Shown one piece after another: positions 16,685 to 37,931 of a stretch of DNA of 64,000 bases. Position numbers and translations under genes: made by a program. The notes below the pieces were generated by a model, which was given only the letters and a program-made list of their open reading frames with translations, was not told where the DNA came from and did not search any database. This DNA comes from Henricia sp. BOLD:AAB3569 (lineage: Eukaryota; Echinodermata; Asteroidea; Spinulosida; Echinasteridae): assembly GCA_037783545.1 (NCBI GenBank), contig JBBELK010000482.1, forward strand, positions 744,001 to 808,000. Direction: 5' to 3'. Every line of letters starts with the position of its first letter. Within the stretch, counting starts at the first letter, position 1.

Positions 16685-16685
16685 C

Positions 16686-17374
16686 TGGCAAAAGAAAAGA
16701 AACCCAGTTAAATGTACATTCGGCTTAAGTGATTTTGGGGTGATAAAAGCCTTCCCCGAAACTTACGAAAAATATGAAACGACAGTCCAAATGTAGGATA
16801 AGTTTCCTTCAATTGTCCGACAAAGATGTGCTTTAGAATTTCAAGACCAAATTTTCATCTCCAAATCACGTAGGCTAGACTGTCTTCGGTCACAATCCCT
16901 GATAAACAGTGGTGTCGCCAAGGGGGTGGGGTGTGGATGGGTGGGGTCGGAGGTTCTTGATCTTGGTCACGGACTGCAGGTATTGGTCTCAGACTGCCTG
17001 GCCTTGGTCTTTGTCTCGGTCTTGGCAGCGGAGACCGCCACCCTTCTGAGATAAGCCCATATACCCAGCATGATTTGGGGCCTAATGACTCCCCCTATAA
17101 TGACCCTATGACTCAACACACTCTTCCCTTTTGTTAACACACACCAACCCCCACTTTGGAATTCCTTGGATGTTTGAGACACAATTATGGGGGAACAATG
17201 GGGGGGGGGGGGGGGGGAGGGAGTACTCTCGGCCCTATATCGTGCTGCATATGTAAGCCCAAGTTGAGACCAAGACATTAATAGGAAGAAACTGAGATCA
17301 ATTAAGACCTTGAAAAGGTTCTTGAGACCTTTATCACTGGTACTAGGACAAAGGGCACAGGACATGCTAAACAC
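16686..17374. other. Start of the 11 kb TRAF intron; G-run repeat
   Basis: No exon is present. The stretch 17112-17255 is the second copy of the repeat at 5780-5925, with a run of about 18 G at 17200-17218. The TTGGTC/TCTTGG words at 16960-17030 form a short degenerate repeat. Confidence 0.45.
17112..17255 (+). repeat. Dispersed repeat with G-run core, copy 2
   Basis: This matches 5780-5925 in word order (CAACACACTC, CCTTTTGTTAAC, GACACAAT, GGGGAACAATGG, GTGCTGCATATGT). The poly-G is expanded relative to copy 1. Confidence 0.6.
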
Positions 17375-17932
17375 TACTTTATGCCTAGTCTTTGCTTCAT
17401 ATGATGGATCACTTGTTTAGCAAGACATTACTATATTGTTCGTTTTAATGTAAAATCAATAAAATGTAGCCTTTTTCAACTTTGAAGATTTCATTGCAGT
17501 AAATCACAGAAAGAGGGCACTGTTTTGGAGTGCATCACTTTAGTAAGACACAAGGGAAAAGTAAAGAAAAAACATAAGACTTCAAGTTGGAGTTATGGCA
17601 AACTGCTGCAGTTTCCACCCCCAGTTTTGTCATGGCTTATAAAATGCAACATGTAAAACAAACTTAAACAGCCATGGAATATAAAAGTTTAATCAAGTTT
17701 GAGAAAAAAGTGGAATCTTGTTTGCATAGTTGAATGTGATTTTCCTGTGTTTGCCTCTTGTGACATCACAACCTTGGTCATGAATATGCATATTACATTT
17801 GCATAAAAGCTAAAAACCTTTGTTTTAACCACCAAAACGAGCTCCAAATAGGATTTTTATGACTGTTACTGAGTTGAGTAGTTTCATAGCATAGATTACA
17901 TTGATAAAAACCCCTAATCATGGGCCCTTTAA
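17375..17932. mobile_element. TTAA-type element, family T2, left end missing
   Basis: This is colinear with 3081-3660 and 31487-34381. The right end reads CATGGGCCCTTTAA. The left terminus is not recognisable. It carries AGAGGGCACTG in place of the AGAGGGCGCTG of the other copies. Confidence 0.72.
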
Positions 17933-18059
17933 GGTACGACAGGTGGATAGGTGTTATAACAGCATTTGAGTGGATTCTCCATGAATAAAGCTGGTACTAA
18001 ACGCTTCTGATCTCATCAGATTAAAGCTTATTGGATTAAAGGTTTATAACCATCAAATT

Positions 18060-18211
18060 GGGGTATATATTTCACAAAGACGTGTGACGCGTCATAAACA
18101 GCAAATCCATCGCAACGCGCCGAAGTACCCTAGCAAGTTTGCCACGGGTTCTGCGAGTTGCGATGGATTTGCTACTTACGACGTGTCGTAAATCTTTGTG
18201 AAATCGACCCC
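18060..18211. mobile_element. MITE, family D (GGGGTCGATTTCACAAAG termini)
   Basis: The left end is GGGGTATATATTTCACAAAG and the right end is CTTTGTGAAATCGACCCC. Internal arms GCAAATCCATCGCAAC and GTTGCGATGGATTTGC are perfect inverses. It is about 152 bp with no ORF. Confidence 0.75.
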
Positions 18212-18247
18212 AGATTCACATATTGAAGTTTTATGACTATCAGATTA

Positions 18248-18657
18248 GGGGCCAATTTCATAGCGCTGCTTAAGCACTAGCTGAAAACGTGTGCTTACTG
18301 TAGCAGAAAGTTGTGGAACTGGTATTTCACGGCCGCGGCATGCTTAAGCATGCGCGTGCTTTTAAATGGGCATTGTTGTGTCACTATATTATTAAGTAAA
18401 TTTTGCCTCTGAAGCTACTAAACATTTAGCAGTGCTTAAAGGCACAGGCTCGTCAGCAATGCGCGCCCGCCAAATGTGTGCCACGCAATATGCAGCTCCA
18501 TAGCAAAGGCATGGAGCTGCGTGTTTCGAGCACGAATTTGGCGGGCGCGCATTGCTGACGAGCCTGTGCCTTTAAGGTTACGATCTCCATGAAATAGCCG
18601 AAGGCTCCGTTAGCACAAAAATCGGCTGCTAAACAGCTCCTTGAAATAATTGGCCCC
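18248..18657. mobile_element. MITE, family G, copy 2, interrupted by a T1 MITE
   Basis: The outer ends GGGGCCAATTTCATAGCGCT and AATAATTGGCCCC match family G (11879-12105). At 18436-18575 it contains a complete palindromic TTAA element of family T1. Removing the insert leaves about 270 bp, close to the other copy. Confidence 0.8.
18436..18575. mobile_element. Palindromic TTAA MITE, family T1, nested copy
   Basis: TTAA borders flank the arms AGGCACAGGCTCGTCAGCAA and TTGCTGACGAGCCTGTGCCT. The central stem has AGCTCCAT/ATGGAGCT. It is nearly identical in plan to 6469-6609. It is inserted in a family G element, so it is the younger of the two. Confidence 0.88.
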
Positions 18658-18689
18658 AGATCAGACTTATCCAAGTTTCTTGAATGGAG

Positions 18690-18950
18690 GTTGGATTCGG
18701 ATCGGATTTGGATTTACGCTACGACCGTCGGATTTTAGATCCGATTGATCCAAGTTTGGTGAATTTGGATTTGATTTCATGCTGTTTTGTCGGATTCAGA
18801 TCGGATTTGGATTTAAACTACCACCATCGGATCAGGTCGCAGATTGAGCCAGATTTGTCGGATTATACGAATCAAGTTTTATCATTATCGGATTGATCCA
18901 AGTCTGTTGCATTTGGATTGGATATGGATTTTCCCTCTCATTTGACATCC
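18690..18950 (+). repeat. Degenerate tandem repeat (GGATTNGGATCGGATTTGGA, ~99 bp unit)
   Basis: The phrase GATCGGATTTGGATTTA occurs at about 18699 and again near 18799, followed in both by CTAC and CCATCGGAT-like text. GATTGATCCAAGT occurs twice (18744 and 18891). This looks like a small satellite-like expansion rather than coding sequence. Confidence 0.6.
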
Positions 18951-19186
18951 TTTGATCTGATTTAACCCAATTCACACTTTAGAGGTACATGTACATGCAT
19001 GGGCACATACATATATTTATGCAAATCCAAAAATATGTATACGGTATTGTACACCAAGCACAAAAGTACTTTGGCACGTAATTCATTCAACTGAACCCAC
19101 AATAATGTTTATTTATATCCAGTGGACCAAAACAAATGCATGCACTGATAAAAAACGAACAAACAAGTATTTGTTTGTACGCATCG

Positions 19187-19270
19187 TTATCCACGCACTT
19201 CGTCTTCACTTTCGCTGCTACTGCTATCACTGATTGGAACGGCATCGTCTGAATGGTTGAAGAGCACCAT
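19187..19270 (-). CDS. Micro-ORF, 27 codons, acidic serine-rich, copy 1
   Basis: The ATG sits in a favourable AAAATGG context and the frame ends at TAA after 27 codons. It reads M-V-L-F-N-H-S-D-D-A-V-P-I-S-D then a serine/glutamate stretch and D-E-V-R-G. The partner at 22196-22285 reads M-G-L-F-N-Q-S-D-D-A-V-P-I-S-D and ends D-D-E-V-R-E. Many differences between the two fall on third codon positions (GAC/GAT, GCC/GCA, CCA/CCT, AGT/AGC), which suggests the amino-acid sequence was kept. I do not recognise a family. It could be a micropeptide, or the last exon of a gene whose other exons I cannot see. Confidence 0.45.
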   Translation of the reverse strand: MVLFNHSDDAVPISDSSSSESEDEVRG

Positions 19271-19544
19271 TTTGACTTATTTTTGAGTCCCACTTTTTAC
19301 TAAAATGTCCAAAATTGAGTTCAAATAGTCCTATAGATTTGAAGAAGAAAGGTAAACTCCGGAGGTAACTGAGGGTTGCACAATTAGGCTCAGAACACGT
19401 GACATGCACAAGCTATACATGAGGGCGCTATACAAGCAAATGTGCAAAAGCATGACGCAGACGAACTGGTGCGCGTAGTTTACACATTATGTCAAACAAA
19501 AGTTCGTGGACTACATTTTAACACTTAGCTGGCCAAGGTGCGAA

Positions 19545-19592
19545 ACCCGGTTATTGAAGACGGACAAAGGTGGTCTACAACAAAGGGTACCG
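19545..19592 (+). other. Possible 5' exon end with conserved splice donor, copy 1
   Basis: The plus strand reads GGACAAAGGTGGTCTACAAC, then AAAGGGTACCG|GTAAGT. Copy 2 at 22574-22614 reads GACAAAGGTTGCCTGTACCA, then TAAAGGTACG|GTAAGT. Conservation of a strong donor in an otherwise diverged stretch suggests a plus-strand transcript starting between the micro-ORF and here, i.e. a divergent promoter. No downstream exon was identified. Confidence 0.3.
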
Positions 19593-20539
19593 GTAAGTTT
19601 TTTCGTACTACATGTTTACTTTTGAAGAACTAGTTCATGTACAAAGTCTGACTTTCTTTCTAAACTTAAACCCCCAAGGATAGAAATGGGATTTAAATAC
19701 ACCTGCAAGTTTTGAATGAGTTCGTAAAATGCACATGTGCTGTGTATACATTTACACAACTGCCACAGAAATTTTACACACATTTGGAAGTTTAACTCAT
19801 TTCAGTCAAGTTCAATTTAGGCCACTGTACACTCAAGGGAGAGAAAATTGCATCAAATTCAGCAACATTTTGGCAAATATTTCATGTCATGAGCTCAAAA
19901 TTAATAAAGAGTTATAAAAATAATTAGTACCCCACAAAAACTAAAAAATCAATTCTGAATGTTCTAAACAAGAGAATGAGCAGAAATCCGCTATTTTATA
20001 AAAATGCAAAGCACAAAACATAGCCTTCACATGAGCTAGCTTTCAGGGATCAACATTTTTAAAAAAAAAGTATTACAGCTAAGACATTTTTGAAGCCCCA
20101 GCAAAAAGTCTCCAATTATCCGGAAATGTTTGTGGTGATCAAACATTTTTTTGTGGTGATCAGGAAATTTGTGCGACGATCAGTAAATGTTTTTGATTGC
20201 TTCAAACTGTTTAATGGTTTAACAGTTAAAATAAAGGTTAAACCATACCATAAATGAACCATCCTAATTAACTCAAATCACAGAAATGAATGGTCTTTCA
20301 GAATCATTCCGACATCACAAAATACTGGCTAAAAACATCCTTTTTAGCAACGAATTTTTCCATCCAAAACTCGAGCATACATGTACATGAGAAAAAAAAT
20401 CCTGAGTACTCAGTGTCTTTAACATGCTTCCCCTTTAGTTAATCTTGCAAAAATCATGTACAAATCGTTATCTTAAATAGTTTGTGAATTTTATACACCA
20501 GTTAATACCCCAGTAGTGAGTTGGGAGGAAAAAAATGTA

Positions 20540-20640
20540 GCACGTGACTTTGTTGGCGGGAAAATTTTAAGTGGCGTACCACAATACCAACAAAGAGGGG
20601 GCTATATCATTGGACCATTGAGCTCAAAGCCTGTAATTTA
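20540..20640 (+). promoter_or_regulatory. Conserved block with E2F-like TTGGCGGGAAAA site, copy 1
   Basis: GCACGTGACTTTG, TTGGCGGGAAAATTTTAAG and CAACAAAGAGGGGGCTATAT, followed by GACCATTGAGCTCAAAG, are strongly conserved with 24061-24170. TTTSGCGGGAA is the known E2F core and CACGTG an E-box; function here is inference. Copy 2 carries two TTGGCGGGA words. Confidence 0.4.
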
Positions 20641-21147
20641 TACAGTTGCTTATTTACATACAGGTGTGTACATTCCCCTATGACATTGACACGCGTATGT
20701 ACCATGCACACAAGAGTTAATTGGACGCTCTTTGCTTAAAGAGCCTGTGCCAATCTTAAAATAAAGCATGTTTGAATAATGTGCTCAATGATGCAAGAAC
20801 ATGCATCGTTTGCGGCAATCTAAAATTTAAGCCCGCAGCGAGCAGACATAAAAATCGTCTATAATATTCGGACACGGTGCTGCATCTTGTAATTTTTGAT
20901 GAAATAAGACAAAGAGTGTTGTGAACAGAGCACATTATGCCTATTTATGCCTTTTTAGTGCTACATTGTAGATGTAAATTAGATAACTTTCGCAGTCAGT
21001 TTCTTTGCAAAAACTGCACCACATCACGCGTCATCAAGTGGGTTCGTGAGGACGTTTGTTCGGATTAAAATTTTGTGGTTTCTTTTCAGGTTCTCTTCAG
21101 TATATTCAGTAAAGGCTTATAGAATCGTGTATGGGTTTATTTTGAGC

Positions 21148-21184
21148 CCAAAATAGCCCAACAAAGCCGGTATGTCCCTTTAAG
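21148..21184 (-). repeat. Terminal fragment of TTAA element family T4
   Basis: ATTTTGAGCCCAAAATAGCC followed by CAACAAAGCCGGTATGTCCCTTTAA is the inverse of the left end of the element at 60201-60986. Only the end is recognisable. Confidence 0.6.
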
Positions 21185-21204
21185 CCTGATTCAAAACCTT
21201 CAGA

Positions 21205-21975
21205 GGTAGTAGCCAGGGCTGTAGTCGAGTCCCCACTTCCCGAGTCCGAGTCCGAGGTGTCCGAGTCCTTGGTGTCCGAGTCCGAGTCCTTGAGTCCGAG
21301 TCCAGCAAACATCCGAGTCCTCAGCAGGCCGAGTCCGAGTCCTTATTTCAATTTCAAGTGCAAGTGTCATTGATCGTGCCTGTGATCTTTAGCAGCTCGT
21401 AAGTTTACTTTAGGCCAAAACAAAATGTTTCTTTGGGAGGTGAGATACATTTGGAGTGCTCAAAATTATTTTAAGCGGTAGAAATTATTTATGTTACATT
21501 CTCACAATTTTATTTCACATGTTCGAAATACTTTCGGCACCCAAAAAAATAACAATAGACACTTCAAATAATTTTTGGTGCCTGTATAAGGGTCTTTCTA
21601 TAAATTAGGGGTCCAAAGTGTGACATTTGGTGTCCCCCGTTACACCTGATATGTGTTATTTTTCGTACAAAAATCATTAAAATGGCTTTTAAACCATTTC
21701 GTATTATTGTACTTTATGTACACACTCTTTGAGATGGAAAGTATTTGAAGAATGTGTCCTGAATTTACAAAAACAAGATGTAAAATGTAACGGGGGACAC
21801 CAACACTGGACCCCTAATTTATAGAAAGACCCATAATGTAGTTTTTGTAAAATATTGTATATTTGTTTTTTTCACTGGACTCGGCCCAAATCTCCGAGTC
21901 CTTACCGCCCGAGTCCGAGACCTGACTAGCCGAGTCCGAGTCCTTGAAAATCGGGACTCGAGTCCTACAGCGTTG
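21205..21975. mobile_element. CAGGG-type element with GAGTCC arrays, interrupted
   Basis: The left end is CAGGGCTGTAGTCGAGTCC and the right end is GGACTCGAGTCCTACAGC, an imperfect inverted pair. Both subterminal regions consist of CCGAGTCCGAGTCC hexamer-like arrays. AGAGGTA occurs on both flanks and may be the target duplication. A separate MITE is nested at 21590-21832. Termini and layout match the element at 28398-29108. Confidence 0.7.
21590..21832. mobile_element. MITE with GGGTCTTTCTATAAATTAGG termini, nested
   Basis: The left arm GGGTCTTTCTATAAATTAGG plus GGTCCA is mirrored by TGGACC plus CCTAATTTATAGAAAGACCC. Inner arms TGTCCCCCGTTACA and TGTAACGGGGGACA also pair. ATAA flanks both sides and may be a 4-bp target duplication. 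It is 243 bp. Confidence 0.83.
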
Positions 21976-22195
21976 AGAGGTACACGTCTATATAATTGCA
22001 TACATCTAAAAATATGTGTACTATATTTTACACTATGTACAAACATACTTTTGGCATACTATGTGCATTCATATACATGTAAAACATTAAATTGAACACA
22101 CAATAACATCGATCTCAATCCAGTGGACCAAAACACGACTGATAAACCATGGAGGAAGAAACAAACAAACAATACATTTGTTTGTACACGCAATG

Positions 22196-22285
22196 TTATT
22201 CACGCACTTCATCATCACTATCACTGCTACTGCTGCTACTATCGCTGATAGGAACTGCATCATCTGACTGGTTGAAAAGCCCCAT
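22196..22285 (-). CDS. Micro-ORF, 29 codons, acidic serine-rich, copy 2
   Basis: The frame starts at AAAATGG and ends with TAA after 29 codons. It is M-G-L-F-N-Q-S-D-D-A-V-P-I-S-D, then six serines, D-S-D-D-E-V-R-E. It is colinear with copy 1 (19187-19270), with two extra codons in the Ser/Asp run. An AG (ATTTCAG) lies 6 bases upstream of the ATG, so a splice acceptor cannot be excluded and this may be a terminal exon. No upstream coding exon was found. The product would be strongly acidic. Confidence 0.45.
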   Translation of the reverse strand: MGLFNQSDDAVPISDSSSSSSDSDDEVRE

Positions 22286-22427
22286 TTTGGCTGAAATCTT
22301 TAAATATATCACCCGAGTACGACAACATTTGACAGATTTGAACAGATTTGAAGCACAGGGGATTCCCTGAAGTACGTTGTAAAACATGTGACATGCACAC
22401 ACACACATCGGCAACACGCACAACATG

Positions 22428-22507
22428 CGTGATCGATAACGCGTGATCCATCACAGGTGATCACGTGTGATCAATCACGTGTGATAAATCACGTGATTGT
22501 TATCGCG
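22428..22507. promoter_or_regulatory. Array of ATCACGTG/TGATCA palindromes
   Basis: Within 80 bp there are three CACGTG or near-CACGTG words and repeated TGATC units: GTGATCGATAACGCGTGATC and GGTGATCACGTGTGATCAAT, then CACGTGTGATAAATCACGTG. The whole block is also loosely palindromic (GATAACGCG at the left, TTATCGCG at the right). It lies just upstream of micro-ORF copy 2. CACGTG is the known USF/MITF/Myc-family E-box; binding is inference. Confidence 0.5.
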
Positions 22508-22573
22508 GTTGATACAGATCATGCTGAATGCCATGAAAGAACATCTCATGATCTGGGCCAGTTGTTAAGATTA

Positions 22574-22614
22574 TGATGGACAAAGGTTGCCTGTACCAAC
22601 TGACTAAAGGTACG
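22574..22614 (+). other. Possible 5' exon end with conserved splice donor, copy 2
   Basis: This is the partner of 19545-19592. GACAAAGGT, a TAC.AAC word and AAAGGTACG|GTAAGT are kept. See copy 1 for reasoning. Confidence 0.3.
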
Positions 22615-24060
22615 GTAAGTTGTAACAACAATTCTGAATGCATACTTTGTACTATATTGACAAAGGTACTATAGTTAACCCTTCAACAATTTTCAAAAGC
22701 AAGCCCCGGAAATACAAATGAGAATATGCATGTTTTGAATGTCAACCTACATGTATGTATGACTGCCATACAGTTACACATGTTTGGCAGATCAACCACA
22801 CATTTTTAGTCAAGAGACCACTTAATTCAAACCACGGCTGATGAATTTACATTTCTCACAAACTATATTTTTCATATTGGACTGAGCTAAAAATTAACAG
22901 GAACAAGAAGCAAATTAGCACCAGCATGGGCGTATAGGCTGGTTTTGTCCCGGGGCAGTGATCTCCACTGCCGGTTTTGTCCGGGTGGCGCGCTCAGACA
23001 AAATCATCACAGGTACCGTTAGCGCCTGGACAAAAATTTGCCAACCGGACAAAAAACTCGGCCGCCCAGGCAAAAAAATCAGCCGCCCGGACAAAAATAA
23101 TGAATTTTCCCCTTTAAAACACTGTGAAAGTACAGCCAAGTCATTCCAAAATAAGGGTGTTAATTCACCAAACATGATTCGCTTGCTATTATTGATCACT
23201 TAACATGCAAATTTATCGCATCAACAGTGCCCTCAAGTGGTGAATGTGTTCATCCTTGAGGGTAATGAATGCTCGGCGCAAAGTCGCGTAGCAAGGTACG
23301 GGTGGATCGTTGCGAGCGCGTGCGTGGCCCATATTGGAAATCGTTGCGCCCCCATACTGCAAAAAAGCTTCCGAATCCTGCATTAATTAAGACCTCCATG
23401 GGAGCTACTTTTGAATTTTCCAAGTTTCTAGCTCTTCACGTGCTAGTTAAACGGTTATAACCATTCAGTTAAAAAGTTAAACTTAAATAAGCCTTAATTC
23501 TCTATGCATTCTCTTTAATAGAGATGCATGTCACATTAACAATTTAAATGTTGGCGGCAATCAGGGATTTTTATTTATTATTATTTTTTTGGCAACAAAT
23601 GGGGATCATTTGCGGCAATTAGAGATAGTTTGCAAAATCAGGAATTGTTTTTGGAGATCATGAATTGTTAAATTTTTAGACAAGTGGGAAATTTGTTAAG
23701 CTTGGCAAAATGTCTCCAAACAAGTAATGTTTGCAATGATCAGAAAATGTTTTAAACTATTGAATGGTTTAACAGTTAAATTAAAGGTTAAACCACACTA
23801 TATATGAACCATCCTAACTCATGGTCTTTCAGAATCATTCCGACATCACAAAATACTGGCTAAAAAATATCCGTTTTAGCCACAAATTTTCCATCCAAAG
23901 CTCAAGCATACATGTACATGAGAAAAAAATCCCTCAATGCAAAATTACTCAGTGTCTTTAACACGCTTCCCTTTAGTTAATCTTGCAAAATCAAGTAAAA
24001 ATATTATCTTAAATAGTTTGTGAATTTTATACACCACTTAATAATGCACTAGTGGTGAGT

Positions 24061-24170
24061 TGGCGGGAAAAAATGGAGCATGTGACTTTGTTGGCGGGAG
24101 AATATTAAGTGGTGTACTACAATACCAACAAAGAGGGGGCTATATCATTGGACCATTGAGCTCAAAGTCT
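24061..24170 (+). promoter_or_regulatory. Conserved block with two E2F-like TTGGCGGGA words, copy 2
   Basis: This corresponds to 20540-20640. TTGGCGGGAAAAAATGGAGC and TTGTTGGCGGGAGAATATTA are both present. The downstream text CAACAAAGAGGGGGCTATAT and GACCATTGAGCTCAAAG is unchanged between copies. Confidence 0.4.
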
Positions 24171-24176
24171 GTAATG

Positions 24177-24298
24177 TAGACTAATCCGACGTATGGGTGT
24201 TTACATGACGTCACAATAGAAATACACCGCAGTAACAATGGAATAGTCACAAGAGGGCGGGCTCACTAAATGTTGCTCGGATTACACTACACTGCCCG
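24177..24298. mobile_element. MITE, family H (TAGNNTAATCYGA termini), copy 1
   Basis: The left end TAGACTAATCCGACG and the right end GCTCGGATTACACTA are inverted. The interior has CAGTAACAATGGAATA and AAGAGGGCGGG. A second copy is at 29996-30117. The corresponding position in duplication copy 1 (about 20640) lacks it, so insertion followed the duplication. Confidence 0.83.
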
Positions 24299-24479
24299 TC
24301 CCAAATTTACATACAGGTGTATATACCCTATGACAAGCGTGCATGCTGTTTGCTTAAAGGCAGGTGCATAAATAAAGCATGTTTGAATAATGTGGTTACT
24401 CATGCAAGCGTGGGAAAATTTACGTTTGCAGGAAGTAACGATAATTAAAAATTTCGATAGCACATGCACCGCTAGATAA

Positions 24480-25676
24480 TTCAATGAACATTTCATCTTA
24501 GTGTCAACATTTTATTTCCTATTATTCCCCAAAATTTTAACTGCCCATTTAAACAAAAACAATCTTTGCATTAATTGCATACAAATTTAGTATTCAGTTT
24601 TCTAACTATACTGACACACTATAGAAACGCAAAACACACACTTTAAAAATGCAAAAACGAGTTTTGAATGCAATAATATCACATGCACATTAAATGTTAT
24701 TGCTGTGTGATGTTCCTGCCACCACCATACCCAAAGCTCGTTCTCTCTCACCTTCCGTTAACCGTGGCATGATGGGAGTGCATGGCATCTCGTGATTGTG
24801 TCTTGCTTATAATGCATGCAGGCCAGGTACTCGTGTTGCACGTGTATTGCATTCAACATGATTGTGCATGCCTGTGACAGCTGCACAGAATTTTCTGTGT
24901 TTTGTCAATAGTTTTAGTATTGGGAACATAGATGAGATTCAAACCCAGCCTTATTGACAAAATTATGTCTTTGCCACTCACAAATGTTGTTTGGGCCTTA
25001 CCATTCTTATTGCCTGCATTACATATAATTGCACCAAATTTTCTGTTTTGCGTTTCTAAAGTGTGTCAATATTTGTACGTATGTATATTTTGGAGATTTC
25101 TTTATGTACCCAAACAAAACAACACTGAACAAATTCAAGCAAGCATATTAAAGCCCTATCGCATCCTTTGCAGTGCACCCAAAATTTTACTTCATAAGTT
25201 GGCAAAGGTAACAAAAGTATCAATTTTTCCCCATTAATTCAACTCTAAGGTCATGCATGAAATTTCTATACACCAGTACAAGGAATTGCACCTAAAATTT
25301 TATTTGTTATATTGCAGAATGTCGTATTTCACAGTGCTATTATGGGAGTTTACCTAATACATTTTATGTCCCGTGCATTTCGCAATCAGGTTGGACTTTT
25401 GAAGAAATTAATTGCACAATACATTTAAGGTCGAGTAAACATGCACTTTGCACAAACACAGAGCCCAAAAATGTACATGTACCAGAGTACAATAATATAC
25501 CATTCAAATAAAAGTCAAAAGACCAAACAGGAATTAAGCTAGCATTTTTACGTGCATGCAACCGTGACTAAAGCTATTTTACTGAACTGGAAATGTGAAA
25601 AACAAAATGGATTTGCCCACTGCATTGCTGGAAAAAGAGAGGCAAACACGAGATTGTTGTGGTGCTCTGGCGGATC
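24480..25676. other. TRAF intron, AT-rich, nothing recognised
   Basis: There are many ACATGTA words and no conserved exon. A pair of words (AAATTTTCTGTTTTGCGTTTCTA and the TAGAAACGCAAAACACACA region) at 25035 and 24620 hints at a degenerate inverted pair. Confidence 0.35.
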
Positions 25677-25678
25677 AT

Positions 25679-25752
25679 GCCCAGATAGCTCAGTTGGTAG
25701 AGCAATTGGACATGTAAGCCAAAGACATGGGTTCGAATCCCAGTCGGGGCAC
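25679..25752 (+). tRNA. tRNA-like sequence (Thr-type TGT position), probably a SINE head or decayed tRNA
   Basis: The stretch from GCCCAGATAGCTCAGTTGG to CCCAGTCGGGGCA has a perfect A box (TAGCTCAGTTGG), a perfect B box (GGTTCGAATCC), an acceptor stem with six of seven pairs and a GTGGG/CCCAG-like T stem. The anticodon stem has a mismatch and position 33 is A rather than T, so a working tRNA is doubtful. It is flanked by ordinary intron sequence. Confidence 0.5.
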
Positions 25753-25759
25753 TGCAATT

Positions 25760-28000
25760 TTCTCGTGTTTCTCAATTCATCTTTCAATCCTGTCATACAT
25801 ACCTTTAAAAATTAAACAATAATAAGTCACAATTGGAGATGAGATAAATACAATTTGTTAGTAAATTATTTACTTTCTCCTAAATATTAAATAAAAATGA
25901 ATTACTTCAGTGCTTTAAAAAAAATATATACATCATGTAGTTTCATGTGTAACATTGCGATTTAATTATCTGAAAGCAATACGTGTATATATATTTGTAA
26001 AATAGTGGTTGTACAGCCACCAGCCCCACAATAATGTTTGAATACATCACATCTACACGATGTACATGCACTCAACATTTCAATGATAATTGGGTCTTTC
26101 CACGGTAAAGAACTTTAATTTAAAAAAAACCCTCTGTTTTAATTAAAGTTCTTTAAGATCTTACCAAATTATGTACATATGTACACCCTTTCTGACTTGT
26201 AAGTAAATGGTATTTTGGACCATTCCGTAAAATGATGAAATTACTTTTGTGAAATGACGCAATTGTTGAAATTATAATTTTTTTTTTCAATTTAAGAAGA
26301 CATGCAAGGGCCCCACAGTTTATGATATTGGTTTTATGGCACATCTGGCAAATGTTGTGCACTTTGTGCCATGCGCTGAAACATGTACAGGCAAATCGAT
26401 AACAAATTGATTATACTAAAAGGCCAGAGTTCACACGGTACATATGGTACATGTGATATGACGCATGTATGCAAGTGACACTGCCCAACATGGAAACGTG
26501 GAAAGGTGGAAAGGTCAAGCTGTGTGGGGGAAATCTAGGTGAGGATGACATGGACTGGATCATCACTGATCTACATAGTGGGATCGGCCAACTGCAACCA
26601 TCACAAGAACACACCCTCTTTTAATTTACTACATTTAATCTATCTGCATATTTTCCATGAATAGGATCAAGCCACCTGTCCATTTCATAATGATGATATT
26701 TTCCTACACAGTGCACATACACTACATGTAGTCTACTCACAATAAGTTAGGGATATAATAATAATGATGACATCTTATATTGTACAAATACAACCTAGTT
26801 TGATGGGAAATACATGTCGTGAAAACTAATGACCCCGAAGTGTTGGATGATGATGGGACTATATACAGTTGTATCTCCCGAGGCGCAAGCATTAGTTTTA
26901 CTGTACCTCATAAATATTATGTCAGGCAGCCGCGGTATCTCATTAATCCAAACCTCCATTTCTAATATCGGATGTCGGTTTGATGTTGGTTTGATTTCTG
27001 CTGTGATAGACTGGTACAATGTGCTCACCACTGATTTCCACGGATACGCATGAAAACGCATGTAAAACGCATGCATCGTTTGTACATTTAATTATAAAGA
27101 TCACGACATACTGGGACAAATCTAAGGCAGTGAGCCAAAGTGTGTGATAGTACCTCGCATCATGCGCACGTGCAAAGACGCGGGGAAATAATAGTAAAAA
27201 CTATCACACAGCTGAGTTGACCACAAAACGTGGATTTTTGCAACTTATTTGCCTGGTGTGAAATTAATTTGGTTTGTGCAAAAAAAAAGGTGTGAAATGA
27301 CATGGGGTAAAATTGTCGTCAGGTCCCTCGGTCAAGTCTCAATTTAAGTTTGAGTCTTTGAGAGCAAGTCTCTATTCAAATCAAGTCTCAAGTCATATAA
27401 ATCAAGCTTAAAAGTCAAGTCAAGTCCCATAATATTGCGACTCAAATGGGACTCAATTCCAACTTGTGACTCAAGTCTTTGAACAGACTTAGGGAAGACT
27501 GCGGGGTTAAAAGTTCACAACTCAAATTAGAACAACCTAGGCAGCAAAAAGCCCAAAAGCTACTTTCTGACTTGAAATTCTCATCCCAGCGCCGTTCTTC
27601 CCCCAACCCCCCCACCCCCCCCCCCCCCCCCCTCCCCCCCCCCCCCCCCCCCCAATTGCTCTTTCCCCGGATCAAGTCCAACTCAGTTCTAGACCAGGGT
27701 TGAAAATTTTGGCTCCGGAGCAAGACACTTTCCCTGGGGCAAGAACAGCAGTGTGAAAAGGGGCAACGATGGGTTCTAATTTGTTCAAGAGAGAGACAAG
27801 GTGCCGATCTCCAGGGTAAGTTCATGAGTGAGTTTGAGAACAACAAGTGTGAATCAACTTGGTGGTAAAATATTGCGTTTCACTCCAGGGTGGCACCGGG
27901 GCGAGTTCGCCTCAGGCATAGTTATGCTAGTGGGGGGAAGGGGAGGGGAATGTAGGACAGAAAGCACACACACAATTTTACAAATAATACAGTATTTTAC
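25760..28000. other. TRAF intron; CTTGACTC-type and poly-C low-complexity sequence
   Basis: The stretch 26105-26155 contains a short inverted repeat (AAAGAACTTTAATTTAA / TTAATTAAAGTTCTTT). The stretch 27330-27480 is a CAAGTCTCAA/AAGTCAAGTC-rich degenerate array like those in the CAGGG elements. The stretch 27607-27652 is poly-C, about 46 bases with few interruptions. No exon was recognised before 28001. Confidence 0.45.
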
Positions 28001-28087
28001 CTTTGCGTTGCAGCCAAGTGGGTGAAACATACATTTCGTCTTTCTTTTTGCGCAGTCTCCCGAATCCGGATCTGAATGCTTTTCCAG
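28001..28087 (-). CDS. TRAF3-like, exon 6 (zinc-finger segment)
   Basis: The exon is 87 nt, 29 codons, between acceptor TTTTTTTACTAG and donor GTAAAA. It reads L-E-K-H-S-D-P-D-S-G-D-C-A-K-R-K-T-K-C-M and ends H-P-L-G-C-N-A-K. The C-x(5-6)-C spacing and the following M-Q-E-H-L in the next exon make a TRAF-type zinc finger split by a 11.3 kb phase 0 intron. It is too short to stand out as an ORF; the identification rests on frame continuity and cysteine spacing. Confidence 0.88.
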
Positions 28088-28397
28088 CTAGTAAAAAAAC
28101 AAAACAATTTTGTCTGTTAACGTATAAACACAATTATGAATGACAGCATCAGCAGATTATTGGTTTTCACAGATAAAGCCACAGACAACCGCAAAAAGTA
28201 GAGATGAAACGTGTCTTTGAACTACAAATAACATCTAACTCCTTTGAGAGACTACAGCACTAAAAGTGGACTCCAATAACAAATGTTCCGAGAAAATTAG
28301 TCTTTTACCAAGACATTCTGCCCAAAGTAAACTTACACGCATTGCAATTCCCTTGTACACTGATAAAGTTATACTAAACTGTTTTGTGGAATACTAG

Positions 28398-29108
28398 CAG
28401 GGTTGCATTGACTCGGACTCGAGACTCGAACCTCAAATTACTTGACTTGGAACTCGAACCTCAAATGACTTGACTAGACTCAGACTTGTACATTTTTTGA
28501 CTCGGGTCTGCCAAAAATGAAATTGAACCTTAATGCTCTTTTTTTTTGTCATTTTGACGACCGAATTAATTGCTTTTCAGCACTAGCTTTTATTTATGCG
28601 CCAGTCACACATACACGACGCACGGCCCGCGCACTGAAAAATTAGCAATTTTTGCCAGTGCGTTGTCGTTCGCTAGGTGTGCGTCAGCATTCGTTACTAG
28701 TTCGTCGAGCGCGCTGGACCAACACTATGCATTTGTTGTCATTCGTTTTGTGAGTCGGGATTTTGGTGCATGCACAAAAATGTGCGCGGAGCTCGACGCA
28801 TGAATGTAAGACGCACTGATCTTATTTTCCATTAATTTTCAATGCGCGGGCGTGCGTCGCATATGTGCGACCGAGCCATTAACTGGAGCATTCTTGGCAG
28901 AACAACAAAAATACTCTACAAGAATGCAAGTTTCAGCGTTTAGACTCATTTTAAAATTTGCTTGAACAAATTTATTGTTGTGACTACATGTGTACTTGAC
29001 TTGAACCGACTTGACCAACATGCTTGACTTGACTTGACTTGGGACTCGAAGGCAATTTGACTTGACCTGTCTTGGGACTCGAGCAGAGGGAGACTCATTA
29101 CAACCCTG
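28398..29108. mobile_element. hAT-like nonautonomous element with 8-bp target duplication
   Basis: The element begins CAGGGTTGCATTGACTCGG and ends GAGACTCATTACAACCCTG. AATACTAG lies immediately on both sides (28390-28397 and 29109-29116), a perfect 8-bp duplication as made by hAT transposases. Subterminal regions are ACTTGACTTG/GACTCGA arrays. A second MITE is nested at about 28596-28880. No transposase ORF is present. Confidence 0.9.
28596..28880. mobile_element. MITE nested in the hAT-like element
   Basis: ATGCGCCAGTCACACATACA followed by CGACGCACGGCCCGCGCA is mirrored by TGCGCGGGCGTGCGTCGCAT followed by ATGTGCGACCGAGCCAT. The GC-rich arms stand out against the AT-rich host. The ends are approximate. 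Confidence 0.7.
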
Positions 29109-29257
29109 AATACTAGCTCGAGTTAGTGTTTAAATACAAATAGCCGATTGGACCAGGGTTGAAATTTTAAAAAGTCTATATACGGGTGCACACAAGTAAA
29201 TAGGCAAGATCTGTGCGCCGAGCTCATGAATATTTTGTGTGCCCTCAAATTCTTTTA

Positions 29258-29664
29258 TATTAGAGAGAATTGCGAGCTAAACGAGTGTGGTCTTGTGTAG
29301 AATATGACTATCGCCGCGATGTGGGGTATTTTTTCTTCCAACTACAAACATTTTAGACACTGTAGCTCCTAAAAGTGGCCCTATTTTGCCCAGTAGCGTA
29401 TGTGCCTTTGTTCCAAAATGGACGCTGGTCTGTTTAGCAATTTTCACTGTTGCAGGGATAGTTTTGTTTCAAGTGCAAATTAGGGAATAAAAGTGACGGA
29501 TTACCCTCATAAAATTGAACAGAATTGAAAAGATGAGACTTCAATGAGTATTTTGGTTGTTGTCCTGAGAAGCTGAGAGAGTTGTGAGTATTTTTAAATG
29601 ATTTTTGAAAATGGGGCATTTAGCATTGGTTCCTATGGGAGCCCTATTTACTTGTGTGCAACCA
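29258..29664 (+). repeat. Dispersed ~400 bp repeat, copy 1
   Basis: This is nearly identical to 56252-56641 and shares TTAGAGAGAATT, ATATGACTATCGCCGCGATG, AAATGGACGCTGGTCTGTTT and TTCCTATGGGAGCCCTATTT. Copy 2 lacks about 25 bp near 29530. The ends are not marked by inverted repeats, and no ORF is conserved on both. Confidence 0.82.
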
Positions 29665-29995
29665 AACAGGGTGCATGGAACCATGTAGATTTCAACACAG
29701 GTCGAACGTTCATAGTGTGAAAAGGCCTTAAGTGTCGATAAGTTAGATTAATATGGCACCATGTATGTAAAACAGACATGTATGTTAACATAGCAGTTTA
29801 TGGGCCTACTTAATTGCTAAAAATGTAACACAAACTTGAAACTGCTCTTGAAGATTAAATGTTAATCACATACACCTGGACATTCAACAGTACAGATAGT
29901 ACTTATGTGATTGTGCAATCACATTGGTATGAACATTTTGCCTCAAGGCCATGCATTAGAGAAAAGTTTACAAGGTTAAGGAAAGTTTGATGAAC

Positions 29996-30117
29996 CTATA
30001 GACTAATCTGACGAATGTGGTGTATCTCCAAGGTATATTTACATGACGACACTGCAGTAACAATGGAATAACCACAAGAGGGCGGGTTCACTAAATGTTG
30101 CTCGGATTACACTATAG
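29996..30117. mobile_element. MITE, family H, copy 2
   Basis: CTATAGACTAATCTGACG at the left and CTCGGATTACACTATAG at the right are inverted. It shares CAGTAACAATGGAATA and AAGAGGGCGGG with 24177-24298. Confidence 0.83.
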
Positions 30118-30559
30118 TATTTTGATATTTAGTACTTGGTTATTTAAGGAAAGTTGTATCATGGAGGAAGGCCATGGTTGTATGAACTCACCCTAAAATG
30201 TAGTTGGTTCTTTAAGAAAGGTTTTGTGAATTCGCATTGGAATGTAATGGGTTTGTGCTTTTTCTGTGAACTTGAATGCAATTTATTCTTTGGGAAAGTT
30301 CGGTGAGCTTGCCTTGGTATATGTACATGTGTAACTGGCTTTTACAAAGGTTCTCTGCACCTATCAAAGTATGCAGCAATGGTTCTGAACTACTGGTTCT
30401 TAATTCCTCATTATTTATAGGTTTAAACATGCAGATTAACCAAGGGAATGGCATACTTGGAAAATCATTGGTTGTTGAAATGGGTAGGGACAATTTAAGG
30501 TATAAAATGAAACTTTTGAGAGTGGTTTTTATGTTATACTCGGTAGTCTATAATCACCA

Positions 30560-30833
30560 TGCAGCTCGATAATGTTAGGGCATCAAGCCCCATTGTTTCA
30601 TTCTATTGATATCAGCTCAGAACCAGTTGAAAACCAGTAACCAATTCTCAGTTCAACTGGACCAGTTCAGACCAGTTCAACTGGACCAGTTCAGACCAGT
30701 TCAACTGGACCAGTTCAGACCAGTTCAACTGGACCAGTTCAGACCAGTTCAACTGGACCAGTTCAGACCAGTTCAACTGGTTTCAACTGGAATTTTCACC
30801 TAGGATGCAGCTCGATAATGTTAGGGCATCAAG
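30560..30833 (+). repeat. 24-bp minisatellite bracketed by 29-bp direct repeats
   Basis: ATGCAGCTCGATAATGTTAG followed by GGCATCAAG occurs at about 30559 and 30805. Between them, 30651-30780 is five full and one partial copy of a 24-bp unit (GTTCAACTGGACCAGTTCAG plus ACCA) with no visible mismatches. An open frame through it would repeat V-Q-L-D-Q-F-R-P, but no start or splice context supports translation. Confidence 0.85.
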
Positions 30834-30885
30834 GCCCTGTGGTTTTTCCTCCAGTTTGGGGAAGACCGACAGATCGGAGGTCAGT

Positions 30886-31228
30886 ATATACACCAATATG
30901 GTAATAAGGTCTTCTTCCCTGTACATCCGCCATAGCTGGGGGGCTTCCACTGAATGAACTGTATGTTTTTGTTGTTGCTGAAGCTGCATTTGTTTACTTC
31001 GAACAAGTTGCGCGTCTTTGTAGGGTTGTGTGCGCGCGAAGGCGGGCGCGTGTACGCAAAGGCTAGGCGGGCGCGTCGCGTATACGCGAAGGAGGCTCGT
31101 TCGTGCATGTAATGGATGAGCGCTTTTCGTTCTAACAGCAACACAAAACGCACAGCCCATGCACTGGACGCCCCCCAGCTATGGCGGATATGCAGGGAGC
31201 AGACCTTCGTTACCGGATTGGTGTATAT
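30886..31228. mobile_element. MITE with ~90 bp inverted ends (TATACACCAAT termini)
   Basis: The left arm TATACACCAATATGGTAATA and later CATCCGCCATAGCTGGGGGG is repeated inverted at the right (CCCCCCAGCTATGGCGGATA and TTACCGGATTGGTGTATA). The centre is GC-rich with GCGGGCGCG repeats. Two overlapping ORFs on the minus strand are shadows of the arms. Confidence 0.83.
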
Positions 31229-33476
31229 TGTGGCTTGCTGGCTTGGTGCTCCAGGGACGACGGGAGTACCAAGACAGCCAACCTCAAAAGCCCGATTTAT
31301 TCTGTGAGTATTTTCCCATAACTCTAACATATAAAACTGTGCTATCAGACAATCAACTTACGGGCCCGAGATATACCCTTTTGTCATAACAGGGCAATGG
31401 GGAAGGGGAGATTACCACATTCTTGGCACTATGGCCCGACCTTTCTTGTACAGGAAATATGACAGAGTGAAACAGGATATTACAACTTAAAGGGCCCCTG
31501 AAATGCTCTATAACGTTATGCAGTGTTTGCTGCATATGAAGGATTACTTGTGTAGAAAGACAATACTACCGTACTGTTCATTTTGATGCCCCATGAATAA
31601 AAAGTGGCATTTTTAATCACATAAAAAGTGGCATTTTTAATCACATAAAAAGTGGCATTTTTCTTCACATAAACTCACAGAAAGAGGGCGCTGTTTGGGG
31701 CATGTCACCTTAGGAACACACATCAGAAAAGCAAAGAAAAAACATAAGACTTCAAACTGGAATTGTAGAAAAATGCTTTTTTAGTTTTGTCATGGTTTGC
31801 AACAGGCAACATCTATACAATTAAAGAGAGACCTGACCTCTTTCCTGAGCCACTAAACCTGTGCTTTCCTACGGCGATTGCACTTTGGGCTCGGGGTTAC
31901 TAATCCCCAGTGCTCTGCGCCATCTTTGCTTGATAACAACCACAGCGTGAGTGGCTACAAGCTGTCACGTGAGTGGCTGGCGTTACGAGACACGTTTTAG
32001 CGTTGTTTGTGCACTTGGATTTTCACCCAACAATTTACAGCTGTGACTGATTGTCGACACCAGTATCTTTCGGCTTATGTTTAGTGTCGATATTGTACAT
32101 AAATTGTTGTGACATCCCAGTTGTCCAATCGACGACGTTGTTACAACGCAACATACCCTTCCAAGCCGTGTCCGAGTCGGGCATTGATATGTGAATTACC
32201 TTGAGGGCTTTGTTCGGGCTGAAAGAGTAAACGCAGAACCCACATGTTGCGGGGTCATAAATAAGCATCTATCAAGCCCTGGCCTCGGCAGGTGGCAATT
32301 TTGATTCAGCGTTTGAATACAGACCATAAACGCTATGTTGTACTTGTAACTAGACCACCTTTATCGAATCTGAAACATACAATAACTTCCAAAGGACTAC
32401 ATTGCACAAGGGCCCGTCTCGGTTAAGTCTTCTGCTGCTCTTAACCGAGTGTTTCAGTCGAAACTGATGTGGGGCGGCGGAAGTTTTTTCAGTCTAAAGG
32501 AGCCGCTTTGGCTAATTGGGGACCTGGCCTCTAGCTGACCTGGGGACCTGCTATAACTGAGTGGGCAGTCGAGGCTGGGCCCGACTTGGCCAGATGGCCC
32601 AGACCACATGATTTCCACGAAATCTAGACTCTCGCCTTTATGCTATGGAGCTCGCATGTGAGTGAGTCGAGCACCAGATTACCCGTCAATTCGGGTCGTT
32701 AATTACCAGGGGTGCACGCTGGCTCATAATAACTGGCGCGAAAGTCTTTGCGGTACCTGAAATACCTCACTCATTACTGTATGCATTTTTTAACTGGACC
32801 ATCCGAAATTAATATTGAAACGATCGTGTACTCATCGTGAATGTTCGTCGAAATAACGAAATATAACTTTTTTTTTAAAACTTGGATTTGATGTGAACTT
32901 GAAAAGCTGAAACGTTTCCAAACAGCAATGATGCAATAAAGATAGTACAGAAATGATTTGCTGATGGTCCAGCTTAGAAAGCGGGAGGGACTCTAGACTA
33001 GCGTTTATGTAAATATAAGGCGTGACTCCAGGACTTATGCAAATATATCACGCAACTGGTCTGTTGCATAATGTACATGTTTAAAGAGAGTGACCATGCA
33101 GATTACATTTTGACCCACCCCTTTTCCTATGGGTTTTGAGATTGTTTGTAAAATATCAATTCATTACCATTCTGAAATCTCCAGTTCTCAATTCGTATCA
33201 CAGCCTTTTGCGTGTTTGACTTGAATAATATAAGGGTATACTACCGTAGTGCCTTTCATGGACTCAATGTTGTTTGAAATATAATGCTATTGGGTGGCTT
33301 GCACGCAGCAGGTAATAAGTGTAAAATCAAAACCGATAAAAGGGAATGGCATAAAGCAACTGGACTGTAAGTACTAACCAAAACAACTTTTGCCCATGCA
33401 GTTGCACTCCCAAAAGCGTGCAACACTGAGAGAAAAATTAGGTCCAGACAGAAAACCTGAGGAAATATAGCAATGT

Positions 33477-33600
33477 GCTTTATAGCTCAGCTGGTAGAGC
33501 ATCTTCCCGGTGAGTCAGAGGTTTCCGGTTCGAATGATGAGGCCCTTACGATTTTTCCCTCATCCCAACTTGAAGTTTGGTCGTTTAAAAAGAAGAAATA
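33477..33600 (+). mobile_element. tRNA-derived SINE, family S2, copy 1
   Basis: GCTTTATAGCTCAGCTGGTAG (A box) and CCGGTTCGAATGATG (B box) are followed by CCCTTACGATTTTTCCCTCA. The same head and body occur at 40345-40470. The acceptor ends no longer pair, so it is not a tRNA gene. Confidence 0.7.
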
Positions 33601-33609
33601 ATGTTTACT

Positions 33610-33770
33610 AAGAAGAAATCTGCAGTTACCGCGCTCATTAAAATACCAAAACACAATGGAAATTTTAGGCGTAATACAGACATTCCAGGCGGTATCTGGG
33701 CACCGCCAGCAATTTCCATTGTTTTGGTATTTTAATGAGCGTGGATCTGCCGCATCGCCCTGACTGATAA
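33610..33770. mobile_element. P1-family MITE, short relative
   Basis: CGCTCATTAAAATACCAAAA followed by CACAATGGAAATT is mirrored by AATTTCCATTGTTTTGGTAT and TTTTAATGAGCG. The core ACATTCCAGGCGGTATCTGG corresponds to CCATTCCAGGCAATATCTGG at 1727 in the element at 1637-1861. Confidence 0.75.
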
Positions 33771-34381
33771 GACTAATAAAGTCCTTGATCGCTACACTAT
33801 GTATTAGGAATCTCGAACAATCAGAAATGTTCACACATTAACTCGTAACTTAATTAGGACCCTAAAACAATTATTGTCCGTGTCATGAGACGAATCATTG
33901 GCGGTCCGCCAATTATTCAACTCGCGGTTAGGCGTAGACTTGCCCAAGTTTGACTCGCGTGTTTGGTCCGCAACGTGCAGCGCACACTGCGGCCTGGCTA
34001 ATCTCCTATCTGTTTGTTGCTTTTGTCTCAGAAAGTCTTCCGAGGCATGATAATTATGTGGAATATGTGTAAAATGTTGGCCGAAAACCAGTCAACCTAC
34101 TGTAGCAGATGGCCGCGCGCCATCGGCTAGTGTGAAACAAACCTAAACGGCCATGGGCTACAATAGTTGTGGAAACTTTTGGGAAACTTTTGTGCACATT
34201 TGAATGAGATTTTCCTGTGTTTTCCTAATGTGACATCACTTTGTTCATGCATATGTACATTTTCATTAGCATAAAAATCAAAAACCTTGATTTTAACCCC
34301 CCAAACAACTTCTAAGTAGGGTTTTTATGATTGTAAATTAATGGTCTAGTTGCTAAAAACACCATTTCAGGGGCCCTTTAA

Positions 34382-36418
34382 CTACATATTGGGAATGTAG
34401 ACTGTTCTTGTAAAGAGGAAACTTCAGTATTTTTGGGTTTTCATTAAAACTTGTTATTGAGGAAGTGCACATGGTCTTTATCAACTAACACCATAGTGAA
34501 AACGGTAATACATGTATTTCAGTTTTTATTTTAGTTTCGTCTTGCCTCATGTCATGGAAACGTTTATACTTTCTCTCAAACCTCCACATTAGCAAATAAC
34601 AAGCTTTAAAAAGATATGTTTTACTGAAAATGCACGATTTTTCACAATATTTTGTTGTACTTAAGTTAAAGGTAGACCACATGATTGGTATCTCAAAAAT
34701 TAGAAATGTTCACAGGTATACTGACATCTCATTGTTCCGATTTTTTCTTCTTTACCTTTGGGAGAAAAGCAGCCTAACTCAAAACCTGAACAAGGTATGA
34801 ACTTGAAACTTGGTACAGATATAGGTCCGAGGTTGTGTAACATGACGATGACGTCATTGGTTGCATAATTATAATAATTTAAAATACCTTTAAAAAGTGG
34901 ATATTTGGGGAAAAAAGCAACACAGGTTGGCTTTTATCACACACATCCTCGATCACACATGAAGATAACTCCGTTTGTAACAATTTTCCAATCCTGTTAT
35001 GGTGTTTTTATATTGGCCACTGGCCCAGATTGGCTATTAGTCTATATGTGGGCGGATGTGAAATTGATATACAAAAATTGCAGTCCCTTTCTTTTTCCTC
35101 TTTCAATTGAGAATTTATCAGGGTCGGGCCCTGAACTTTACAACTTAAACATTCCCACGTTTAGCTCAAAGTCTCACAAAGTTGTTTTTTTTTTGTGCGG
35201 ACACCAGGCATATGACACACTGACAATTGGTTTTCTATGACTAATCTATTAATCTATTATTCTCTTTTACTGTCTCCACTCTCCACCCAAATTTTCCCAA
35301 CTGGGCCTAGTGACGCCTGTTACGGCCTTTCCTATCATTTTGCATTGAGGACCTGTCCTGTGAACATCATATTCTTATTCTGTCCAGCATATTTGCACAC
35401 AGAATATATATTTCAAGCTCATCGAATGAGTAAGTTAGATCGTTGCATTTCGAGTACATTTGCCTAGATTAAACAAAATTGTACAAATTTAACAAGAAAA
35501 TTAATATTTTCATAATGACAATCTATACGATAACTTCGAAAATGCTATCACTCAAGTTATTGCTGGAGTTATCGGCTCAGAATCGCTTTTGAGCTAATAA
35601 CTTTGCTCATCGCCCCACCTTCCCTTACACTCCCAATCTCCTTAATACGATAACAAATTGATAACCTTATCGGCTGTAGTCATTGCCCCAAACCCGGGTT
35701 ATCGGCTCAATTTAATTCATATTGGAGTTTGGTGTTTAGGGGACCCTAAAATAGCTTTTATGCCGTTTTGCCAATGGTGTTGGAGGTGGGGATTGTGTAC
35801 GGTAAGAATTCAACAACTGAAGATTCACAACTCTGTTGTAGTTATTTTTGGATTTTGTTTTTAGTGAACATCCTTGGTCTTTTATTTCCTTTGTGTGTAT
35901 TTTGACCAAAATTATACTTTGACCATGGAGGAGTCGTTTTTCCTTCCTCCATGCTTTGACCGAAACTTATGGCTTTTAATGTTTTATGATCTTTTATCTG
36001 ATATGTGTAAATACTTGCTTCTATTTTATTTATTTTCTAAGAATAAACAAACTGCTCAAAATGTTGGTTGATGTTAGGGTGCCATGTTTAATCAAGTAAA
36101 TTTTATCAGTTTGTTAAATTGTCTTCGCAACATGTACCATATGTATATGTACCTGCATATCCTCTGGGAAAAAAAATACACTGAAAAGTTTCTCTAGGAT
36201 AAACAAATGAGTTAAATCAAATATATTTACCATTGTTCTATCCCAATATTTGGACCAATGCATAACAAATATTTAATTATTTTTTCCTTTTCATGAATTG
36301 CCTCTGTAGTGGAAAAGTATTTTTTTTATTATAAAAATAAGGGGGCATGTCACTGTGACCTTGATTTTGTTTGAATTCCAACGCCCACTAATATAAACAA
36401 ATTAAGCTCAAACAGTTA
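34382..36418. other. TRAF intron, no exon recognised; old duplication
   Basis: The stretch 35309-35460 aligns loosely with 38020-38150 (TGT/CCGTTAC...CATCATTT, TGTGAACATCA/TGTAAACATCA, CAGCATATTTGCACA/CAACATATCTGCACA). Each copy ends near a GTAAGT-like word. Frames are not kept, so I call it non-coding or decayed. Confidence 0.4.
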
Positions 36419-37257: not shown

Positions 37258-37771
37258 GCATTCCTTTATATGCTTTTGTTTTTGCCCTATGTACGACACG
37301 CTCTAGTTAATTCCCATGAAGAATGCTACAACGAGTTCATTGTACTATTAACCATTCTGTTGTGTCCCAGATTGGCCAGCAGTTTGGAATTTGGGTGAAG
37401 GTCAAGTTCAGGTAGTCAGTTACATGTACAAAGAGAACTGCCTTCCAGTGGGTTTTATTGACAGATATTTTTGAGCTAACTTACGCAAAGTATACATTTT
37501 TGTGTTGAAAACTTACAAACAAAAGTCGGAACAAATTGTGCCCTCCTTTCATTTTTCTATTTTCAGCCTGCTACATACAAGCACACGGCACACAAAAGCT
37601 TTTGTGTCTATCCGTTTCCAGCGTGTCTAAAGTCCCGTAACAACAAAAGTCCATTCCTACATTACATAAAAGTATTTCATGTTTACCGTCACCCTCACTG
37701 CACACGTGGGGCATGACAAAACCTGTCAATTATGACACAATGCCTGGGCGGTTTTATTTCTTTCTTTATGT

Positions 37772-37931
37772 CTATAGAGCTGTTTTACACCGTCACGGGT
37801 CACTAAACATCCCCGTGTTTGTCCTCCAGATCAGGAAGATAACAATAGAGCCTCATGGTTTTCTGCTAGCAGCTGTTCTCTCCCCGATCTGGAGGGCTTA
37901 GTGACCCGTAACAGTGTGAAACCGCCCTATA
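37772..37931. mobile_element. MITE with CTATAGRGC termini
   Basis: CTATAGAGCTGTTTTACACC followed by GTCACGGGTCACTAA is mirrored by TTAGTGACCCGTAACAGTGT followed by GAAACCGCCCTATAG. Internal CCTCCAGATC and GATCTGGAGG also pair. It is about 160 bp. Confidence 0.8.

Follow-up and report, generated by a model that had tools for sequence, protein, structure and literature searches.

The DNA analysed here, referred to as the window, is a 64,000-nucleotide stretch of the starfish Henricia sp. BOLD:AAB3569 (contig JBBELK010000482.1, positions 744,001 to 808,000; C482:744001-808000 in our numbering). It carries two diverged copies, A and B, of a minus-strand open reading frame (ORF) of 27-29 codons, here termed the micro-ORF, which is probably a real short protein-coding sequence. 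The host genome (740.7 Mb in 2104 contigs) was queried with the B peptide, the A ORF, the B ORF region and the C left block, and besides A and B it yielded one further copy, C, on contig C550 at approximately 738.7 kb; such copy counts are lower bounds. Each copy is arranged in the same order: a left homology block, the ORF within it, and a right homology block. The left-hand features in the window are:

19030..19351, minus strand: left homology block of copy A, comprising the ORF, the DNA upstream of it and its 3' side; this extent derives from the match to C, while the match to B covers 19075-19277
19187..19270, minus strand: micro-ORF of copy A, 27 codons plus TAA, with CAAAATGG as start context; open and aligned with B and C
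22006..22292, minus strand: left homology block of copy B, lacking AATAAA at the equivalent place
22196..22285, minus strand: micro-ORF of copy B, 29 codons plus TAA; of its ATG codons, the one aligned with those of A and C is the inner one

The deduced peptides are MVLFNHSDDAVPISDSSSSESEDEVRG for copy A (27 residues), MGLFNQSDDAVPISDSSSSSSDSDDEVRE for copy B (29 residues) and MGLSNHSDDAVPISDDSSGSESEDEVRG for copy C (28 residues), and 20 of the 29 columns of their alignment are invariant. Start, stop and frame are intact in all three copies; in each the ATG lies within CAAAATGG, a favourable start context, and the TAA stop is conserved. An AATAAA hexamer is found 70-85 nt beyond the ORF in two of the three, at 19113 on the minus strand in A and at 4646 in C. 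The three aligned copies contain 104 ATG-initiated ORFs of at least 15 codons, among which the micro-ORF alone possesses both a stop and an aligned ATG common to all. One plus-strand frame has a stop common to all three (A 20257, B 23807, C 6350) without a common start, and no excess of third-position changes is seen over its final 19 codons (3/7, 4/7, 3/6); a 24-residue frame (20304-20378 and 23835-23909) is common to A and B only. The first-pass annotation of this DNA had described two diverged copies sharing the same ORF, which is confirmed here, and the sole further copy returned is likewise undisrupted. Copy C was considered as a haplotype duplicate and rejected as such, because in a 30-kb comparison its flanks are unrelated to the window apart from repeats. 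A transposon was also rejected: the ORF of A, the ORF region and right block of B, and the left block and right end of C, used as genome queries, recovered A, B and C only, as lower-bound counts.

Comparison of A with B reveals that 10 of 12 substitutions in the ORF fall at third codon positions when the gap in the serine run is placed by MAFFT (P 5e-4), and 12 of 14 with the alternative placement (P 8e-5). With the MAFFT placement there are seven synonymous and five nonsynonymous changes, giving a synonymous divergence (dS) of 0.76, a nonsynonymous divergence (dN) of 0.079, and a dN/dS ratio of about 0.1, which is not near 1. The length changes are of whole codons and lie in the Ser/acidic run. 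The earlier description of the differences as mainly third-position or Ser/Asp-run length changes is thus borne out. The corresponding third-position counts are 10/15 for B-C and 0/3 for A-C. When 84-nt segments were slid along the A-B alignment, the most 3-periodic of the 554 was 19181-19264 (12/14), which comprises 78 of the 84 bases of the ORF; the next separate segment gave 8/14. The ORF also ranked first among 1104 segments for B-C, albeit narrowly (10/14, next 7/10). A segment entered this test if it had at least 10 substitutions and no more than 6 of its bases were unaligned, a filter that removed the A-C ORF segment; the 497 A-C segments scored thus lack it, and the best of them reached 6/10.

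The rate of change tells a similar story. Of the 70 sites directly upstream of the ATG, 31 differ between A and B, and the third positions of the ORF are similarly diverged (10/27), whereas the first and second positions differ at 2 of 54, far below the upstream DNA (Fisher P 1e-7) and also below the 3' flank (34/150, P 1.4e-3). In simulations of substitutions alone at the upstream A-B divergence, the ORF stayed open in a proportion of 0.02. The third-position bias together with the slowness of the first and second positions between A and B is a coding signature, and codon-level constraint between B and A/C is an observed property of this ORF and its copies. As a statement about selection it is narrower: codon-level purifying selection, as deduced from these alignments, covers only the long period over which B has been apart from the A/C lineage, and not the time after the A-C split.

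Facing the micro-ORF on the other strand are two donor-like words:

19585..19598, plus strand: donor-like GGGTACCG/GTAAGT of copy A (here and below the slash marks the splice boundary); absent from copy C
22606..22620, plus strand: donor-like AAAGGTACG/GTAAGT of copy B; absent from copy C

The first-pass annotation regarded this donor as conserved. The words do exist, as CCG/GTAAGT at 19593 in A and ACG/GTAAGT at 22615 in B, and the stretch around them aligns with a score attained by 1 of 300 shuffles. It has 181 of 258 ungapped columns identical (0.70), with longest exact runs of 10 and 9; in simulations, an exact run of at least 9 appeared with a frequency of 0.97 at 0.70 identity, 0.76 at 0.62, 0.41 at 0.55, and 0.22 at 0.50. 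The match of the words is therefore at chance level. In copy C the counterpart of 19351 is followed directly by the counterpart of 19761; this copy has no equivalent of 19352-19760 and so no donor. Since the donor is missing from C and its A-B match is no better than chance, it is not a defining part of the unit. A divergent plus-strand transcript was rejected on the same two grounds, and the proposed pair of divergent transcription units is not supported.

On the other side of the ORF lie the right homology blocks, to which no strand is assigned:

20172..20832: copy A, right homology block; contains a single exact TTGGCGGGA (20553-20561), CACGTG and one ATTGG, and shows no excess RNA folding
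23732..24593: copy B, right homology block; TTGGCGGGA lies at 24060 and 24091, CATGTG stands in place of the CACGTG of A and C, and C matches 24288-24593

The E2F-like word TTGGCGGGA occurs three times in the window (20553, 24060 and 24091), always in the right blocks, where 0.34 occurrences are expected; 1 of 100 shuffles yielded three or more. Of the E2F-like words in the blocks, the second is exact in all three copies, while the first reads TTGGGAGGA in A and CTGGCGGGA in C. Divergence across the three pairs is 0.09-0.14 in 20172-20660 and 0.22-0.27 in 20660-20832, and that between A and C on either side of the ORF (0.10-0.12) is like that of the right block. Because the three pairs show about the same divergence in this block, its preservation says little on constraint, and at such divergence the survival of an E2F-like word is, on this comparison, no sign of function. 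The block could be a promoter. The blocks with E2F-like words noted earlier as kept are accordingly present as words, but only the second is exact throughout and the conservation of the block does not call for constraint. A structured RNA was rejected as well: on neither strand does the A block fold better than its shuffles (z -0.09 and -0.54), a change on both sides is seen in 1 of the 94 predicted pairs, and no Rfam family matched the unit at the cut-offs, the 6 and 3 matches of lax searches all lying far below. Separately, CTTTGTTGG and CCAACAAAG in 20548-20595 form a 9-bp inverted repeat in A and B, with one base differing in C; its first arm overlaps an E2F-like word.

Left and right blocks have different histories. 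The site patterns of the left block group A and C strongly (A and B against C, 16; A and C against B, 63; B and C against A, 8), whereas those of the right block leave the three about equidistant (29, 39 and 30, respectively; chi-square for left versus right, P 2e-5). On the simplest account, an old tandem duplication would have produced A and B, and copy C would later have split from the A lineage to another contig; at about the time of that split, gene conversion may have made the right blocks of A and B alike. The likeness of the right blocks probably reflects recent shared ancestry through such conversion, although a separate duplication of the right block would do as well.

Copies A and B are surrounded by the exons of a TRAF gene, with which they share the strand:

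45849-46091, minus strand: RING exon, Pfam match
41574-41807, minus strand: first zinc-finger exon, just below the Pfam cut-off
40537-40758, minus strand: second zinc-finger exon, Pfam match
16685..40593, minus strand: predicted intron containing copies A and B; donor AAG/GTAAAG and acceptor GCCAG/GTG, both phase 0
15584-16762, minus strand: coiled-coil/MATH exon, by Pfam, the coiled coil by eye

With the zinc-finger exon ending at 40594 and the MATH exon starting at 16684, both in phase 0, the predicted intron measures 23.9 kb; a crude scan for Cys/His patterns of further TRAF exons within it found no acceptable candidate. The location of A and B in a TRAF intron, as the first-pass annotation had it, is probable, the intron itself being predicted from the flanking phase-0 exons. 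The setting nevertheless looks incidental, because no TRAF exon was recognised by eye around copy C, and its contig is absent from the seven zf-TRAF matches listed for the genome. A parent gene was also sought near copy C (C550, 704-793 kb), where the ORFs recognised by eye were all unrelated (EF-hand-like at approximately 730 kb, sushi-like at approximately 750 kb, and AMOP-like at approximately 767 kb). Two further features were seen in this part of the window. MATH terminal exons of TRAF type occur twice in tandem on the minus strand (9083-9844 and 15584-16762), downstream of the single recognised RING/zinc-finger set, which points either to duplication of the last exon or to a further gene that is headless. 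A tRNA-Thr (TGT) is located at 25679-25752 on the plus strand, within the predicted TRAF intron.

Our preferred interpretation, to which we assign a probability of roughly 0.5, is that the micro-ORF, on the minus strand and 27-29 codons long, represents a stand-alone microprotein gene, and the three copies would best be read as a small gene family of the small-ORF (smORF) type. Such a gene would be transcribed and translated from the conserved CAAAATGG to the conserved TAA, with the AATAAA beyond the ORF of A and C serving as poly(A) signal, the ATG presumably being the true start rather than the middle of a larger spliced frame. Several points weigh against this. Between A and C the ORF has three substitutions, all nonsynonymous, and one codon insertion, with none of 15.7 synonymous sites changed; it is slower than its flanks (3/84 versus 25/220, P 0.04), but not in a codon-specific manner. 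Three sequences amount effectively to one long comparison, that of B with A/C. The open frame of copy B has an additional upstream ATG at 22426 that A and C lack, and in A and B an AG stands a few nucleotides before the aligned ATG, so that it may be read as a splice acceptor. No relatives were found for the three peptides in Pfam or for the B peptide in PDB, and 65 pattern matches among viral contigs included no relative.

The AG dinucleotide bears directly on an alternative that is possible, if doubtful, in which the ORF would encode only the acidic C-terminal tail of a larger protein, as the last coding exon of a spliced gene, and the duplicated unit would be that exon plus the 3' end. Copy B reads TTTCAG/CCAAA before the ATG and copy A retains an AG (AATAAG/TCAAA) amid otherwise highly diverged upstream DNA; moreover, acidic Ser/Asp tails are common at protein ends. 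Copy C, however, reads CG for AG, A has no pyrimidine tract before its AG, the ATG context is kept in all three copies, and none of the other A-B segments scored is equally 3-periodic. Nor do the zinc-finger exons of the TRAF gene fit: their donors, after 40594 and 41610, are phase 0 and do not join the AG/YC boundary in frame. With respect to these two donors, an alternative terminal TRAF exon with the boundary AG/YC AAA ATG was rejected; a donor-like end was also seen at the RING exon.

It is rather unlikely that the open frame is an accident, having survived in duplicated non-coding DNA or in a dead gene fragment. The A-C changes, nonsynonymous without exception, speak for it, alignable blocks on both sides of the ORF are also kept, so that preservation alone is not special, and at approximately 11% divergence the ORF stays open in 0.43 of simulations. 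A strong third-position bias in which the third positions have diverged as far as the upstream DNA (B versus A/C) is hard to obtain without past coding constraint. It is very improbable that a non-coding RNA gene, or else a regulatory element of E2F/CCAAT type, makes up the main content of the unit, with the ORF as passenger. The right block (20172-20660 in A) is only 9-14% diverged and contains the E2F-like words, CACGTG (in A and C) and one inverted CCAAT, but this divergence equals that of A and C around the ORF and needs no constraint, and the folding, covariation and Rfam results given above speak against a structured RNA.

If the stand-alone microprotein gene is real, its product would be a soluble, acidic and probably disordered peptide. 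The peptides contain seven or eight Asp/Glu residues, one Lys/Arg and seven to nine serines. Their SDDAVPISD core is invariant, as is DEVR near the end, and the Ser/Asp/Glu run that comes after the core varies in length by whole codons. A run of serines followed by acidic residues is a substrate for CK2-type phosphorylation, and the peptide would most likely act as a short linear motif for binding, its acidic tail being open to phosphorylation. The core includes AVPI, the letters of the Smac tetrapeptide, after SDD in all three copies. The likeness to a Smac-type IAP-binding motif consists in the same four letters following Asp; it differs in that AVPI is internal rather than N-terminal here, so that a cut after SDD would be needed, and the residue four before that cut (His or Gln in these peptides) provides no preferred caspase context. 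An echinoderm microprotein family in which SDDAVPISD is cut after Asp, the freed AVPI end binds IAPs, and the acidic tail sets the timing, with A and B residing within a TRAF gene, itself part of this field of signalling, must be rated a most improbable, speculative scenario. A literature search joining four IAP terms returned no match.

A Ser/acidic run behind a short hydrophobic stretch is also a feature of the phosphorylation-regulated SUMO-interacting motifs (SIMs) of PML and Daxx, as described in an extract of PMC8616421. According to that extract the core rule is hXhh or hhXh, composed of I, V or L, to which not every SIM conforms; the micro-ORF core, AVPI, has only two I/V/L residues and lies outside the rule as given there. 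With the animal smORF microproteins treated in PMC11674832 and PMC4807881, again as extracts, the micro-ORF shares a short intact ORF, purifying selection on codons, and a place outside known families. It is far shorter, at 27-29 residues, than the 70-80 residues named in the extract of PMC11674832, and whereas hemotin (extract of PMC4807881) belongs to a hydrophobic class of approximately 80 residues, the micro-ORF peptide, known here from its sequence, is hydrophilic and acidic. A literature search for micropeptides from small ORFs of echinoderms returned no paper, and one on starfish small open reading frames matched a review which, judged by its title and the start of its abstract, concerns methods for studying translation.

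Genes this short readily escape gene finders. A tandem pair with a dispersed copy in one genome provides an internal test of coding constraint without recourse to other species, and the approach is applicable to paralogous introns generally. If translated, the copies of the micro-ORF would form a family of acidic microproteins that share a fixed core motif, for which a binding hypothesis would be easy to test.

Three other elements were encountered in the window and genome. At 18435-18576 there is an inverted repeat with 47-nt arms that are 96% complementary, perhaps a short palindromic mobile element; similar DNA is present at 6469-6609, at 45073-45200 and on C550 near 731.8 kb. The minus strand of 51628-53886 contains an open retroelement frame of 753 codons with RVT_1, zf-RVT being just below the cut-off. 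Elsewhere in the assembly, the COX1 of the host is read with AAA as Asn (within STNHKDIG), ATA as Ile and AGA as Ser, which is the echinoderm mitochondrial code; flatworms use it too, but by its appearance the protein would be that of an echinoderm, closest to a sea star. COX1 is found on C2104 and, at 7592, 23813 and 40034, on C955; because it recurs there in steps of 16,221 bp, C955 seems to consist of mitochondrial genomes joined head to tail, probably through an artefact of assembly.

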